Assembly (NCBI GenBank): GCA_019309045.1
Contig: JAFDGZ010000029.1
Coordinates: 1-34,183 of the forward strand
Length of the DNA: 34,183 nt
Direction of reading: 5' to 3'
DNA from: Deltaproteobacteria bacterium
GTDB lineage: Bacteria; Desulfobacterota; Syntrophobacteria; BM002
Position 1 is the stretch's first letter, and the number at the start of each line of letters is the position of its first letter. Below, piece after piece: positions 26,567 to 32,341 of this stretch. The notes beneath the pieces were generated by a model. It was not told the DNA's origin. It made no database searches and saw only the letters and a program-made list of their open reading frames with translations. A program made the position numbers and the translations under genes.

Positions 26567-28879
26567 ATGAGTGATACATATGGCAGCATCCTCGAACTCA
26601 TCGGCAACACGCCCCTCGTGAGAATCAATCGCCTTTTCAACAGCCGTAAAGTGACAATTTATGCCAAACTAGAGATGCAAAACCCGGGCGGTTCTGTAAA
26701 AGATCGTATTGCCTTGTACATGATTGAGGCAGCGGAAAAAGAGGGCCTGCTAACCCCGGACAAAATTATTATAGAGGCCACCAGCGGCAATACAGGCATT
26801 GGCCTCGCTATGGTCGCTGCGGTGAAGGGCTATCGCATTACTCTGGCCATGCCCGAGACTGCCAGTCAAGAGCGGCAAAAGATTCTCAAGGCGCTGGGGG
26901 CTGAAATTATGCTCACCCCTGGTGCTCTCGGAACTGACGGGGCAATTGAGAAGGTGTATGAACTCGTGCGTCAATATCCACAGCGCTACTTTATGCCGGA
27001 CCAGTTCAACAATGAAGCAAATTGGCAAGCCCACTATCATGGAACTGGCCGGGAGATCTGGGAGCAGACAAAGGGCGAGGTCAGCCACGTGGTGGTGGCG
27101 CTGGGAACCACAGGCACAGCAATGGGCGTGGCAAGGCGGCTCAAAGAGTATAGCGACAGGGTGAGGGTGGTGGCCGTGGAACCTTACATGGGGCACAAGA
27201 TTCAGGGGCTCAAGAACATGAAGGAATCGTATGTTCCTGGTATTTTTGATAAGACCATACTTGACGAGGTAATGCACGTCGAGGACGAAGAAGCTTTTGA
27301 AACGGCGCGAAAGCTGGCGAAGGAGGAGGGAATTTTTGCTGGTATGAGTGCGGGTGCCGCCATGGCCGCGGCAGTAAGAATAGCCCAGAGACTGCAGGCC
27401 GGCACCATTGTTGCCATCCTGCCGGACGGGGGTGAGCGCTACCTGAGCACCAATCTTTTTACCGAATTACTCGAACCTGACATCCGTCTTTATAACACAA
27501 TAACCAGGCAAAAGGAGGAACTGAAGCCGCAGACGGAGGGCAAGATTTCCATATTCACTACCGGTCCATCCATGAGCGGGGCTGCTGACCTCAGTGAGTG
27601 TCGTCGTTTCGTCGTAACCGACCTGCTTCGCCGCTACCTGGAATACAAGGGTTTTGAAGTGAATCAGGTGATCAACGTCTCAGACATGGATGAGCGCTGC
27701 TTGCAAGGGCCCCCGGGAAGTGGCGAATATGGTGCCTCTCATCTCCTGGACAAGTGGTTGCAGGCCATGGATGCTCTGGGAGTTAAAAAGGCCAGCCATT
27801 ATCCCCGCAGCAGCGAACATCTGGAAGAGATGATCAATATGAGCCGGGCGCTGCTGGAGAAGGGGTACGCCTATGAAAAACTGCGGTCTGTCTACTTTGA
27901 CATTTCGAAGTTTTCAGATTATGGCAGGTTGTCCCGGGTAGATATCAGGAAAGTCAGGTTGGGGATGACGGTAGATCTGGACGCTTATGAAAAGATCAAC
28001 CCACGAGATTTCACCCTTTTGCGACGAGCTACTCTGGCGGAGTTGAAAAAAGGAATCTACATAAAGACCTCCTGGGGTAGTGTGCTGCCCACCCTTCACC
28101 TGGAAACTGTGACTCTGGCCAGAAAGTATCTTGGCGAAACAGTGGACATTCATACAAGCAGTCTGGATTTCCTCTTTCCCCACAATGAAAATGAGATCGC
28201 CCTTGCCAAAGCCGTCAGCGGCAAACCTCTGGCCAATTACTATCTCCACTGTGAGCGGGTGATTTTTCCGCAGGGGAAATTAGCTGAAGAGAGCCAGCAT
28301 GGGACCACAGTTGAGCAGTTGCTGAACAAGGGGTTCAGCGGCAGGCAGATTCGTTACTGGTTTCTTACCACGCACTACCGGAAACCCCTGCATTTCAGCG
28401 AGGAGAGATTGGCAGAGGCCTCTCGAAGTCTTGCCAGGTTGGATGAGTTTCTCATGCGCTTGCAACACACTGGGCCGGGAGAGGCAGCAGAAGAGGTGGA
28501 TCAACTCGTCTACCAGGTAGAGCAGAGTTTGGCCGAGGCAATGAGTGAAGACCTCAATACCTCTTCCGCTCTGGCTGCTGTATTCAGATTCATTCGAGCT
28601 ATGAATCCGTTGCTGACCAGGGGGGTGGTCAACGAGGAACAGAAGAGTTCTGCCATTGGTGCCATGCGCCGCCTCGACGCCATTCTGAACATTATGAGAT
28701 TTGAGGATCTCGAATTGGATGCAGAGTCTCTCGAGCTGATTGCTGCCCGCGAGGCGGCCAGGAAGAAAAAGAACTGGCAGGAAGCAGACAGGCTTCGGCA
28801 GCTTCTCAAAGAGAAAGGCATAGAATTGATTGATACTCCTCGGGGACCTCAGTGGCGCCGCACTACTCCTTCGACATAG
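26567..28879 (+). CDS. Cysteine synthase fused to a degenerate cysteinyl-tRNA synthetase-like domain
   Basis: A 770-residue fusion. Residues 1-305 are a complete O-acetylserine sulfhydrylase: NTPLVRI, Lys45 in GGSVKDR (PLP Schiff base), TSGNTG (72-77), GTTGTAMG (180-187), GMSAGAA and LPDGGERYLST. This half should make cysteine from O-acetylserine and sulfide. At 306 the sequence passes without linker into a full CysRS fold (RLYNTITRQKEELKP, DLLRRYLEYKGFEV, FPHNENEIALAKA, THYRKPLHFS, and the C-terminal DTPRGPQWRR). Its catalytic features are gone. Zinc Cys (CGP) is Thr332, the HIGH site is DLSE (341-344), the second zinc Cys is Thr514, and KMSKS is KLAEE (571-575); His539 and Glu543 remain. 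Aminoacylation is therefore unlikely, and the tRNA-binding part looks preserved. Confidence 0.9.
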   Translation: MSDTYGSILELIGNTPLVRINRLFNSRKVTIYAKLEMQNPGGSVKDRIALYMIEAAEKEGLLTPDKIIIEATSGNTGIGLAMVAAVKGYRITLAMPETASQERQKILKALGAEIMLTPGALGTDGAIEKVYELVRQYPQRYFMPDQFNNEANWQAHYHGTGREIWEQTKGEVSHVVVALGTTGTAMGVARRLKEYSDRVRVVAVEPYMGHKIQGLKNMKESYVPGIFDKTILDEVMHVEDEEAFETARKLAKEEGIFAGMSAGAAMAAAVRIAQRLQAGTIVAILPDGGERYLSTNLFTELLEPDIRLYNTITRQKEELKPQTEGKISIFTTGPSMSGAADLSECRRFVVTDLLRRYLEYKGFEVNQVINVSDMDERCLQGPPGSGEYGASHLLDKWLQAMDALGVKKASHYPRSSEHLEEMINMSRALLEKGYAYEKLRSVYFDISKFSDYGRLSRVDIRKVRLGMTVDLDAYEKINPRDFTLLRRATLAELKKGIYIKTSWGSVLPTLHLETVTLARKYLGETVDIHTSSLDFLFPHNENEIALAKAVSGKPLANYYLHCERVIFPQGKLAEESQHGTTVEQLLNKGFSGRQIRYWFLTTHYRKPLHFSEERLAEASRSLARLDEFLMRLQHTGPGEAAEEVDQLVYQVEQSLAEAMSEDLNTSSALAAVFRFIRAMNPLLTRGVVNEEQKSSAIGAMRRLDAILNIMRFEDLELDAESLELIAAREAARKKKNWQEADRLRQLLKEKGIELIDTPRGPQWRRTTPST

Positions 28880-28921
28880 TAAGGAAAGCTGGGCAGGGGT
28901 ACCACAAAGGACGCAGCAACA

Positions 28922-29662
28922 CTACTTGTCAGTGGTGACCACCACGATGCGAAGAGAAACTTGAGGCTTTTGCATGATCAGCTGCCGCGGGCTCAATTCC
29001 CTCGGATCCACTTCGCCGATCTTGACGAGTTCCCGAACCAGCAGAGGATAGCGTTGACTTGGCACTCTGAGCTGAATAAGGCGAGCTGCCCTGGGACGCA
29101 CCTGCAGCATTCGGGCACTGTCGTGGATATCTACAGCAGCGAACGACTGCAGCAGTGAAGCAAGTTCAGCATGGGCCTTAGATAAATCCTTCACCTGCAG
29201 TACCACGACTCTTCCCTCGGCAGTGTTGGCGAAATTGCGATCCGGAGCTGTCATGGTTACAGTATTGGAGAGAGGTGCTTCAGCCACCAGTGCTTTCCTG
29301 TCCAGATTGGCCTCCGTGAGACCTGGAAATATGGCAAACCTGGCTTGCCATCCCAGAACAGAAATCAGCAGGAGAGCGGCGATACTCATACCAAAGGCGA
29401 GCCAACGCTGATAGCCAGCAAGTTTTGCTTTCTGCCCGTATGATCTGTTTGCCACCCTGGCCGCCACCATGGCACTCATATGTTCAGGGGGATCGAGGGA
29501 AGGCAGTCCCCGCAAGGCGGATACACTCTTGTGGAATGAATTCCATTTGCGGTAGCAGGGCAAACATCTCTTCAGATGAGACTCTAAGGCCTGACGCTCT
29601 TCAGTGGTTACCAGGCTATCGAGTAAATCTGAAAATCTGGACTGGCAATCCTTGCATTCCAT
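28922..29662 (-). CDS. Anti-sigma factor with N-terminal zinc-binding (ZAS-type) domain
   Basis: A 246-residue membrane protein. The N-terminal cytoplasmic domain has the zinc anti-sigma pattern His29-X3-Cys33-X2-Cys36 (ESHLKRCLPC) with Cys3/Cys6 upstream. One membrane segment follows (about 88-106, FGMSIAALLLISVLGW), then a periplasmic domain of about 140 residues with no family recognised. Such proteins hold the cognate ECF sigma factor inactive until an envelope or redox signal. Its ATG lies 3 nt after the sigma stop, and the sigma gene's end (TTAGGA) provides the ribosome binding site, so translation is coupled. It is convergent with the cysteine synthase fusion, with a 42-bp gap. Confidence 0.85.
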   Translation of the reverse strand: MECKDCQSRFSDLLDSLVTTEERQALESHLKRCLPCYRKWNSFHKSVSALRGLPSLDPPEHMSAMVAARVANRSYGQKAKLAGYQRWLAFGMSIAALLLISVLGWQARFAIFPGLTEANLDRKALVAEAPLSNTVTMTAPDRNFANTAEGRVVVLQVKDLSKAHAELASLLQSFAAVDIHDSARMLQVRPRAARLIQLRVPSQRYPLLVRELVKIGEVDPRELSPRQLIMQKPQVSLRIVVVTTDK

Positions 29663-29665
29663 AGA

Positions 29666-30289
29666 TTATCCTAACCTTGTTGCCAAACATTCCTGCAGGG
29701 CAATTCTTGCTCGGTGCAAACGCGACTTCACCGTGCCTAAATTGAGTGAAAGCATGCTACACAGTTCCTCGTAAGAAAAACCTTGGACATCTCTCAGAAC
29801 AAGAATTTCTCGAAATTGCTCTGGTAGTTGATTGAGACAATCCTGAACCTGCCATGCCAGATTTCTGGCCACAGCCATCTGTTCAGGGGTTGGTCTCGTG
29901 TCTATTAGCTGTTCCACTGAGTCCTGAGAATAAGGGTTGTCCGGGTTGACTCTCTCATAGTCACGTCTCAAGAGTTGTCTTCGCGACAGATATTTGATTC
30001 GATTTCTGGTCTGATTCAGGGCTATTCGGTAGAGCCAGGTAGAAAAGCGTGAGGCACCGCGAAAGCTAGATATCCCTCGGAAAGCAGCCACGAAAACATC
30101 CTGAGTAAGATCCTCCGCCTCCTGTTCATTGCCGAGCATCCGATAGACGAAGTTGTATATTTGCCTTTCATATCGCTGCATCAAACGGGTGAATGCTTCC
30201 CTGTCGCCCCGCCGACAACGACTGACAAGGGCTTTTTCGTCTCTTGCTAGAGCTTTTGGGCCAGGTTCAGCCAATGGTATCGCGTCCAT
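29666..30289 (-). CDS. ECF sigma factor (RpoE-like)
   Basis: A 207-residue sigma-70 family ECF factor. Region 2 covers about 31-100 (FTRLMQRYERQIYNFVYRML, then DLTQDVFVAAFRG, and FSTWLYRIALNQTRN for promoter melting). A variable acidic linker follows, then region 4 at about 145-200 (LPEQFREILVLRDV, YEELCSMLSLNLGTVKSRLHRAR helix-turn-helix for the -35 element). It forms an operon with its membrane anti-sigma factor. The ATG has no Shine-Dalgarno sequence, and an ECF-type promoter lies just upstream, so the mRNA is probably leaderless or nearly so and the gene autoregulated. Confidence 0.92.
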   Translation of the reverse strand: MDAIPLAEPGPKALARDEKALVSRCRRGDREAFTRLMQRYERQIYNFVYRMLGNEQEAEDLTQDVFVAAFRGISSFRGASRFSTWLYRIALNQTRNRIKYLSRRQLLRRDYERVNPDNPYSQDSVEQLIDTRPTPEQMAVARNLAWQVQDCLNQLPEQFREILVLRDVQGFSYEELCSMLSLNLGTVKSRLHRARIALQECLATRLG

Positions 30290-30298
30290 TTGTTAGTG

Positions 30299-30325
30299 TT
30301 AGACAACAGCCGGCTGAAAAAGTTC
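30299..30325 (-). promoter_or_regulatory. ECF (sigma-E-type) autoregulatory promoter
   Basis: On the minus strand GAACTT (30325-30320), a 16-bp spacer and TCTAA (30303-30299) match the sigma-E consensus. Transcription start would fall about 0-4 nt from the ATG at 30289. Confidence 0.7.
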
Positions 30326-30369
30326 GCCAGCAAAAAAAGTCCTGCAAATAGAAGACCATTTCAAGGGCA

Positions 30370-30396
30370 GAACTTTTCTTTTTGCCACAATTCTGC
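30370..30396 (+). promoter_or_regulatory. Possible divergent sigma-E-type promoter
   Basis: GAACTT (30370-30375), a 16-bp spacer and TCTGC (30392-30396), against a TCTRA-type consensus, facing away from the sigma gene. No plus-strand gene follows before the antisense of the histidine phosphatase gene. Confidence 0.3.
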
Positions 30397-30663
30397 TTGT
30401 GTGCGGTGCGTGGTGTTTGCAAGCAATCTCCACGGCAAATCGTTCAGCGTTGATGCTGCCTCCAGGAAGGTGAGTATTAGTGTGCTGCCAGATGGCGTTC
30501 GCCAGGGAACTGCTCTGCTCACTGGCTAGCTTTCTCCAACTCTGCGGCGCAGTGGGCGTCTGCCCATTGCGGTTCTCCTGGTGTTCTAGAACTCAACTAT
30601 CTTGCCAAACTGCTCATAAAGCGGCTGTCACGGAGTACCCGCGGTTGCTAGTGGCTGTGTTGA

Positions 30664-31299
30664 CTAGAAATCAGCAAGGGGCTGTTTACCAAGCGCCTTG
30701 AGATAGGAAGTGTCGTTCAGAAAGGAGATGATCCACTGGTTGTTCTTGAAGATAAACAGATTAGTGCAGGCAGTGTCCTGTTGAATTCGCCAGAAATTGC
30801 TGTTGTCGATTCCGATCAGAGCGCAGCAAATTACTTTATTGGGCACCCGGTGGGCAACCAGGACAATGTTCTCCTCAGCATGCCTTGCAAGCAATTCTTC
30901 AATGGCCTTCATGGTTCGACTGCGGACCTCGTCCAGGCTCTCGCCGCCAGGAAAGCGGACTTTGTGAGGCTCCTCCAGCCACATTTTGTACAGGTCTGGA
31001 TATTTCTTCTGTACTTCCTGGTTGCTGACGCCTTCCCACTGGCCATAACTGATGTCAATTATTGCCTCGAGAGGCGTTACAGAGAGGTCGTGGAATTTGG
31101 CAATGTTTTCTGCTGTCTCCATTGAACGCGACAGGGGACTGCTATATACAGCATGCAAAGCCTCGTCCTTGAGAGCTTCTCCGGCCAGATGCACCTCTTT
31201 CTTCCCTGTGTCGTCCAGGGGAATGTCTGCCCGACCTCGAAATATTTCCTCCTTGTTCCAGGCGGTCTGGCCGTGACGGACCAGATAGAGTTTGGTCAT
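30664..31299 (-). CDS. Histidine phosphatase superfamily protein (phosphoglycerate-mutase/CobC-like)
   Basis: A 211-residue branch-1 histidine phosphatase. LVRHGQTAWN at the N-terminus contains the phospho-accepting His9 and flanking Arg8. SSPLSRSMETA carries the second conserved Arg, YGQWEG the acid/base Glu, and LVAHRVPNK the second catalytic His. The last motif usually reads HGG, so VAHRVPNK is a slight departure. Substrate could be a phosphosugar, alpha-ribazole phosphate or another monoester. The ATG has GAGGAG 8 nt upstream, and its site overlaps the end of the U32 peptidase gene, 16 nt before, so the two are an operon. Confidence 0.88.
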   Translation of the reverse strand: MTKLYLVRHGQTAWNKEEIFRGRADIPLDDTGKKEVHLAGEALKDEALHAVYSSPLSRSMETAENIAKFHDLSVTPLEAIIDISYGQWEGVSNQEVQKKYPDLYKMWLEEPHKVRFPGGESLDEVRSRTMKAIEELLARHAEENIVLVAHRVPNKVICCALIGIDNSNFWRIQQDTACTNLFIFKNNQWIISFLNDTSYLKALGKQPLADF

Positions 31300-31315
31300 T
31301 TTGCCGTCTCCTCAA

Positions 31316-32341
31316 TCAAAGTCCTCTAATCTGGCGATGCAGTTCTCTAGTCTTTTCCATTCGTGCCCGGTCGCGTTCTCTAACAATTGTCTGCAATTCT
31401 TTTTCAACAGCGGCCATCTCTGCATCAGCTGGATCTTTGCCAGCCAGATAACCGTCAATGAGGCTCCGGTAGCATTTGATCATTTGGCCGATGAGCCTTA
31501 CAGGATACTCGCGGCCCTGCACTTTGAGAGTTTGCAGGCCCAAGGCCAGATACTGCCGAAACTCATCCCCCATAATGGCAAAGGCGACATTGGGGTTTTT
31601 CCTGATTCTCTCATTTACGGCAGCAATTTCATCCCGGGTCTTGCCCTTGCGAAGCATAAGTTTTTGCCGCTGGGCCTCGCTGAGGAGACAGAAGCGGAAG
31701 CAGCTGCCGCTCATGTCTGGCCAGCCCTCATATTCGACAATTTCGTTGCCTTCTTCGTCTCTGTAGACTTTTTTCCGGTAAGAGTCGCTTATGATTTCGT
31801 GAAAGAGACAGTTTCCCACCCCACCTATACAGCGATTGCCATGAATGAGGACTTCAGTAAGCATGCCCTCTGCATCGGCGTCTTTCTTGAAACGCTGCAG
31901 CTTCTCGACCGTATTGATTTCGGTGCTGGCCACAACCTGCGTGGCGCCTGCCCGATGATAAAAAGCCAGTTCTTCCTTTGTCTGGATGTTGCAGCCTACA
32001 CTAGCGTGGATGATGAGTTCCGGATAGTTTTGCTTGATCAGCTCCATGAGCTTAGGCGTCTTGATAATTACACCCTCGACACCCCAGCGCGCCCATTTTG
32101 CTGCTTTGCTCAGCACTCGCAGGAATTTTGCTTCAGGCACTTCTGCATTTACTGCTACTCGAACTTTGCCGCCATACCGGCTGCCGATGTCAACAGCTTC
32201 CTTGATCTGACTGTCTTCCAGCTCCCAGGCACACTTTCTCCGGCTAAACCCCTTGGCGCCAACGTAGACGGCATCGGCGCCTTTGGCGAACACTTCCTCG
32301 ACCATTTCGAGGCTACCGCCTGGGGCGAGTAGTTCGTTCAT
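31316..32341 (-). CDS. Peptidase U32 family protein
   Basis: A 341-residue protein beginning [20 protein letters not shown], the standard N-terminus of the U32 family (KPELLAPAG...GADAVYVG). [15 protein letters not shown] is the next block, and the central Cys cluster [13 protein letters not shown]...SGSCFRFC resembles the U32 cluster region. Characterised relatives include collagenase-like proteins, the Fe-S proteins UbiU/UbiV and the tRNA hydroxylation factor TrhP, so the function may be redox or RNA modification rather than proteolysis. ATG at 32341 is fixed by GGAGG nine nt upstream; a frame open to 32410 has no better start. It leads an operon with the histidine phosphatase. Confidence 0.88.

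Follow-up and report, generated by a model that had tools for sequence, protein, structure and literature searches.

The 34,183-nucleotide stretch of deltaproteobacterial DNA analysed here (the window) probably carries an autoregulated operon for an RpoE-like ECF sigma factor and its membrane anti-sigma factor, which would be transcribed as a near-leaderless mRNA and would have the protease gene degP as a further target. This reading is built from comparison of sequences: a promoter of the type recognised by sigma-E-like factors lies exactly 9 nt before the sigma start codon in every ortholog that could be read, and the same motif recurs upstream of degP in 10 of the 11 genomes that carry the operon. 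The promoter is well supported and the leaderless status moderately so, and the parts from which the circuit would be built are ordinary.

The sigma operon and its promoter

The sigma gene occupies positions 30289–29666 of the minus strand and encodes 207 amino acids from its ATG. The protein contains only Sigma70 regions 2 and 4 (Sigma70_r2, 9.5e-20, residues 36–103; Sigma70_r4_2, 1.5e-17, residues 147–198), as members of the ECF family (group IV) do, and scores 117.7 against a cut-off of 42.9 for TIGR02937. Its closest NCBIfam models are of the RpoE/SigW type, yet it stays below their cut-offs, reaching 148.7 bits with the RpoE equivalog TIGR02939 (curated cut-off 236.15 bits). As the earlier note had reported, an anti-sigma gene follows after a gap of 3 nt (minus strand, 29662–28922); eight of ten orthologs have this 3-nt gap, and in the remaining two it is 4 and 6 nt. 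The 246-residue product has a zinc-finger N-terminus of the HXXXCXXC type (HLKRCLPC; zf-HC2, 1.6e-06, 28.6 bits versus a cut-off of 22.2) and one hydrophobic segment, which hydropathy predicts to be transmembrane at about residues 87–105. Motif, predicted membrane segment and position beside the sigma gene together assign it to the zinc-finger (ZAS-type) class of putative membrane anti-sigma factors. Beyond it, on the plus strand at 26567–28879, a single 770-residue open reading frame fuses a cysteine synthase (CysK/CysM type) to a cysteinyl-tRNA synthetase; all 12 genomes of the order carry the fusion at full length, and a limited literature search found no report of it.

Direct reading of the minus strand bears out the promoter that the earlier note had described, GAACTT-N16-TCTAA at 30325–30299, placed 9 nt before the sigma ATG (30289–30287). 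Its −35 element GAACTT (30325–30320) and −10 element TCTAA (30303–30299) are separated by a 16-nt spacer (30319–30304) that ends in a conserved extended −10 sequence, GTTG, and the −10 element is joined to the ATG by the 9-nt region CACTAACAA (30298–30290). The TAA within the −10 element (30301–30299) is an in-frame stop for the sigma reading frame, its first T lying 12 nt from the A of the ATG, and therefore no sigma start codon is possible further upstream.

Ten sigma orthologs could be read, from three genera of one family (one genome of g1, eight of g2 and one of g3), with proteins 59–65% identical to that of the window. In all ten, both promoter elements are identical, the spacer is 16 nt long and exactly 9 nt separate the −10 element from the ATG. 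Between genera, identity is 1.00 in both hexamers and falls to 0.62 in the spacer and 0.42 in the 9-nt region; over the 100 nt further upstream it is 0.35, compared with 0.32 for shuffled sequence (17 pairs), and this region is unalignable between genera. The distance from the sigma gene to the next gene upstream also varies, from 172 to 962 nt across the nine loci where it was read. With flanks this variable and spacing invariant, the position of the promoter relative to the start codon is what stays constant, although this conservation is phylogenetically limited, all ten orthologs being from one family. Across the order, the sigma gene was detected in 10 of 12 genomes. One of the two others (G005) has a contig that ends at the anti-sigma gene, so that the absence of the sigma gene is only a gap in the assembly; in the second (G011; contig C454, 22100–26500), the sigma/anti-sigma operon is absent from between its usual conserved neighbours.

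That the GAACTT/TCTAA pair is a chance match and no promoter is extremely improbable. The bare pattern GAACTT-N15..18-TCTRA shows no enrichment: the window genome has 9 matches, fewer than the 17 of a reversed control, and the pattern would have been insufficient by itself to reject chance. The rejection comes from the fixed place of the pair in 10 of 10 orthologs and from counts of the extended motif GAACTT-N12..15-TTGTCTAA, which has 12 matches in the 12 genomes of the order and 1 in the control. Ten of the 12 are the sigma-gene site, one for each genome in which a sigma gene was found, and the other two, both in the window genome, precede a DegP/HtrA-type gene (contig C70) and an RpoD-type sigma gene (contig C68). 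The degP sites described below, which are absent from the genome without the operon, also speak against chance. Conserved in this way, co-occurring with the sigma gene and repeated before degP in relatives, the element upholds the proposal of a self-type promoter as far as sequence comparison can carry it.

Transcript leader and start codon

The constant 9-nt gap in 10 of 10 genomes predicts, in agreement with the earlier note, an mRNA whose 5′ end would lie within a few nucleotides of the ATG, with transcription starting in or near 30293–30291. For an ECF promoter mapped in vitro by primer extension, PMC3397946 places the −10 sequence TCTATA at −11 to −6; by analogy with that spacing, the sigma +1 would fall about 3 nt before the ATG, at position 7 of the 9-nt region. 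In all ten orthologs this region has a purine at position 6, a pyrimidine at position 7 and an A at position 8, which makes position 6 or 8, and thus a leader of 4 or 2 nt, the natural guess for +1.

The start codon itself fits a leaderless message. As the earlier note had stated, the ATG has no Shine-Dalgarno sequence: no Shine-Dalgarno-like triplet occurs in the 17 nt checked before it, and the same holds for 10 of 10 orthologs. The ATG is likewise conserved in all ten at its fixed distance, with GTG or TTG never substituted, so that an AUG start and the lack of a Shine-Dalgarno sequence, the two marks of a leaderless gene, occur together in every ortholog. Among 25 non-overlapping open reading frames of the window of about 180 residues or more, 14 have a Shine-Dalgarno-like core at a possible start (the starts being unverified), and absence of such a core is therefore weak evidence taken alone. 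The 3′ end of 16S rRNA was not found in the window genome, and only fragments were found in two of four relatives.

Two other accounts of how the gene is expressed keep the promoter and change what is made from it. The earlier note had named use of an internal start codon as an outcome that would count against it, and the candidate is an in-frame TTG at codon 6 (minus strand, 30274–30272). Were translation to begin at 30274, the promoter would still be real and autoregulatory, but the mRNA would have a leader of about 17–22 nt without a good Shine-Dalgarno sequence and the ATG would not be the main start. All ten orthologs have TTG here, the only fixed codon among 16 invariant leucine positions, the other 15 of which use several codons; a start there would also leave about 15 residues ahead of the core, an N-terminal tail resembling that of homologs in families f14 and f90. 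Two other invariant leucine positions, however, show one codon in nine of ten orthologs, so the fixation at codon 6 is not extreme, and most of the sequences have no Shine-Dalgarno-like purine run at the usual distance before the TTG. Codons 2–5 show no clear third-position excess in the eight g2 genomes, with 2, 2 and 3 variable sites (of 4) at the first, second and third codon positions, and are too few to decide the start. Because the ATG and its 9-nt distance are kept in 10 of 10 orthologs across genera with differing flanks, we regard the TTG start as unlikely; the ATG is clearly, though not decisively, ahead, the TTG being kept in all ten as well.

The second account places basal or main expression in a long-leader mRNA, made from an upstream housekeeping promoter or by read-through from a histidine phosphatase gene, to which the promoter near the ATG would only add. 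The upstream gene indeed runs in the same direction, at a distance of 374 nt in the window, and is syntenic in nine of the ten loci, which are those that could be read; in some g2 relatives a TTGAAA...TATGAT pair can be picked out upstream by eye. Against these points, no sigma-70-type promoter was found at 28500–31400 of the window, where shuffled sequences gave an expectation of 2.0, conservation of the upstream region does not extend from one genus to another, and the ATG within a long mRNA would have no Shine-Dalgarno sequence before it. We hold it to be quite improbable as the principal route, although a long-leader mRNA and a leaderless start may coexist. The reading that we prefer remains initiation at the ATG on an mRNA begun at the adjacent promoter.

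The degP promoter and homologs across the phylum

All 12 genomes of the order have a degP ortholog, and the sequence upstream of it follows the distribution of the sigma operon. The motif GAACTT-N16-GTCTAA is matched at 12 of 12 positions in nine genomes and at 11 of 12 in a tenth, giving a promoter match in 10 of the 11 genomes with a sigma operon; in the eleventh (G001), the contig breaks off 254 nt upstream. The genome that lacks the operon (G011) offers at best a 9-of-12 match before degP, within the range of shuffled sequences. In the window genome, the gene on contig C70 encodes a DegP/HtrA-type protease (TIGR02037, above cut-off) and has AAGGAGAGG before its ATG. E. coli sigma-E controls degP, and given the degP link, the window's sigma factor is best read as having an RpoE-like role in envelope stress. 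By arithmetic from their positions, the degP sites lie 44–351 nt from the most upstream in-frame ATG, far from the start codon where the sigma site is near; the same sigma factor therefore appears to make a leadered degP mRNA and a near-leaderless mRNA of its own.

We claim no regulon beyond sigma and degP. Searches for a wider one with two mismatches allowed gave no excess over the reversed control, either for a 17-nt spacer (5 matches versus 15) or for a 16-nt spacer (19 versus 17); the 19 include the 10 sigma sites and 3 degP sites. None of the four other ECF genes of the window genome has a matching element beside its start, apart from one chance-like GAAC...CGTT (L004). Separately, the RpoD-type sigma gene of the window genome has a near-identical promoter with a 17-nt spacer (contig C68, 12818–12845; L020, 1501–1528), followed by a purine-rich, Shine-Dalgarno-like leader and a GTG start 45 nt downstream of the promoter; with no mismatches allowed, this site was found in the window genome only and not in relatives.

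When 395 genomes of the phylum were searched with a profile, the sigma protein was detected in 45 (E ≤ 1e-45), 43 of them outside the family of the window. The downstream gene, examined in 28 of the 43, encodes a zinc-finger protein with a hydrophobic segment in 25 cases; one locus has a broken frame, and no open reading frame was read at two. A GGAAC...TC-type element lies near the start of the sigma core in 36 of the 43. Homologs of other families share with the window the ECF factor, the zinc-finger anti-sigma protein with its hydrophobic segment and a GGAAC...TGTCTAA promoter near the start, and differ in the gap, which is 9 nt in the window, 4–5 nt in families f14, f90 and f74 and about 25 nt in f11, with overlap of the start codon in some members of f57, f34 and f13. 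Among the 36 motif-bearing homologs, 13 have an in-frame start codon 1–13 nt after the −10 element, mostly at 4 nt, and 17 have one at 14–38 nt, including the eight f11 genomes with the motif, in which the gap is 24–26 nt and contains a purine-rich, Shine-Dalgarno-like stretch. The remaining six have start codons only inside or upstream of the −10 element, for example ATGTCTAA.

Of the 46 genomes of f57 and its class, 19 were matched. In each of these 19 the element lies 43–46 nt from the sigma core when the −10 sequence is scored loosely (4 of 6 or better), and this distance is fixed even where the only ATG overlaps the element or lies up to 83 nt upstream. At the loci of this class (L136–L154) and at L071, L079 and L125, GGAAC...TGTCT(A/C)A keeps its 43–46 nt to the core even where it covers the sole start codon or falls within the apparent reading frame. 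A transcript begun from the element in such places would, puzzlingly, be without a start codon; since the element sits over the only start codon in some distant homologs, its position alone is no proof of leaderless use. Sequence comparison thus presents a promoter near the start as common to the entire lineage, with leaderless placement as one of several states.

The proposed circuit and known systems

Taken together, the operon very probably forms an RpoE-like envelope-stress circuit that transcribes itself, and its own mRNA would have a leader of 0–5 nt. In unstressed cells, the zinc-finger anti-sigma protein would keep sigma at the membrane, from which an envelope signal would free it. Freed sigma would then transcribe its own operon and the DegP/HtrA protease gene from GAACTT-N16-TCTAA promoters, RNA polymerase starting 0–5 nt, most likely 2–4 nt, before the sigma AUG. 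Ribosomes would translate the sigma mRNA by leaderless-type initiation, with no Shine-Dalgarno sequence involved, and degP mRNAs would have ordinary leaders.

A more speculative possibility, to which we give little credence, is that the arrangement acts as a translational gate on positive feedback. The AUG, without a Shine-Dalgarno sequence, would be poorly translated in read-through or housekeeping mRNAs, and the 5′ AUG of mRNAs from the self-type promoter would be translated as leaderless. Sigma would then be made chiefly from self-started messages, also when stress hampers Shine-Dalgarno-dependent initiation; this gating would be why the spacing is fixed, and in related lineages the same promoter would have moved among positions that give a leaderless mRNA, give a leadered one or overlap the start codon. 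Should the mRNA prove leaderless, positive feedback of a stress sigma factor would be tied to non-canonical translation initiation, conserved in an uncultured delta-proteobacterial family. The system would also offer a clean test of why regulators keep leaderless mRNAs, the same sigma factor and promoter type being leaderless on itself and leadered on degP, and distant homologs, in which the element variously stands 4, 9 or about 25 nt before the start codon or overlaps it, would form a natural series.

The earlier note had called such an arrangement unusual for a gram-negative-type stress regulator. The predicted placement stands, but the word is too strong: a 2011 survey predicted leaderless genes in 8 of 33 delta-proteobacterial genomes, where their mean share is 15.8% (PMC3160421), and 13 of the 36 motif-bearing homologs in the phylum have the element 1–13 nt from a start. 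In Cupriavidus metallidurans, leaderless mRNAs, defined by a 5′ leader of less than 5 nt, are enriched in the transcription class, as given in the available text of PMC7563307. The accessible parts of the literature yielded no report of an ECF factor with a self-recognised promoter giving a leaderless mRNA in this group.

The E. coli system of sigma-E (RpoE) and RseA, in which sigma-E drives rpoE, rpoH and degP from promoters of the GAACTT/TCTAA type and autoregulates its gene through an mRNA with a conventional leader, is like that of the window in its ECF sigma factor, membrane anti-sigma factor and promoter type, and in the autoregulation and degP target that are predicted for the window. 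The window differs in the zinc-finger type of its anti-sigma protein, in the score of its sigma factor with the RpoE model (148.7 versus 236.15 bits) and in a promoter only 9 nt from the start. In Thermoanaerobacter tengcongensis, the ECF gene for RpoE1 is autoregulated and coupled, across a 2-bp gap, to the gene for the membrane anti-sigma factor TolB, but its transcription start was mapped 39 nt before its GTG, which leaves a conventional leader (PMC3397946). ECF sigma genes on leaderless mRNAs, like that predicted here, are described in the accessible sections of two papers for sigE p1 of Mycobacterium tuberculosis and sigJ of Streptomyces coelicolor (PMC4921905, PMC3160421). The M. tuberculosis promoter, however, carries a WhiB7 motif and is not of the self type (PMC4921905), and sigJ is under sigma-H according to a cited title, whereas the window's promoter is predicted to be recognised by the sigma factor that it serves. 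Leaderless mRNAs and autoregulated ECF factors are thus both known, and the locked spacing described here is a well-conserved variant rather than a new kind of system.
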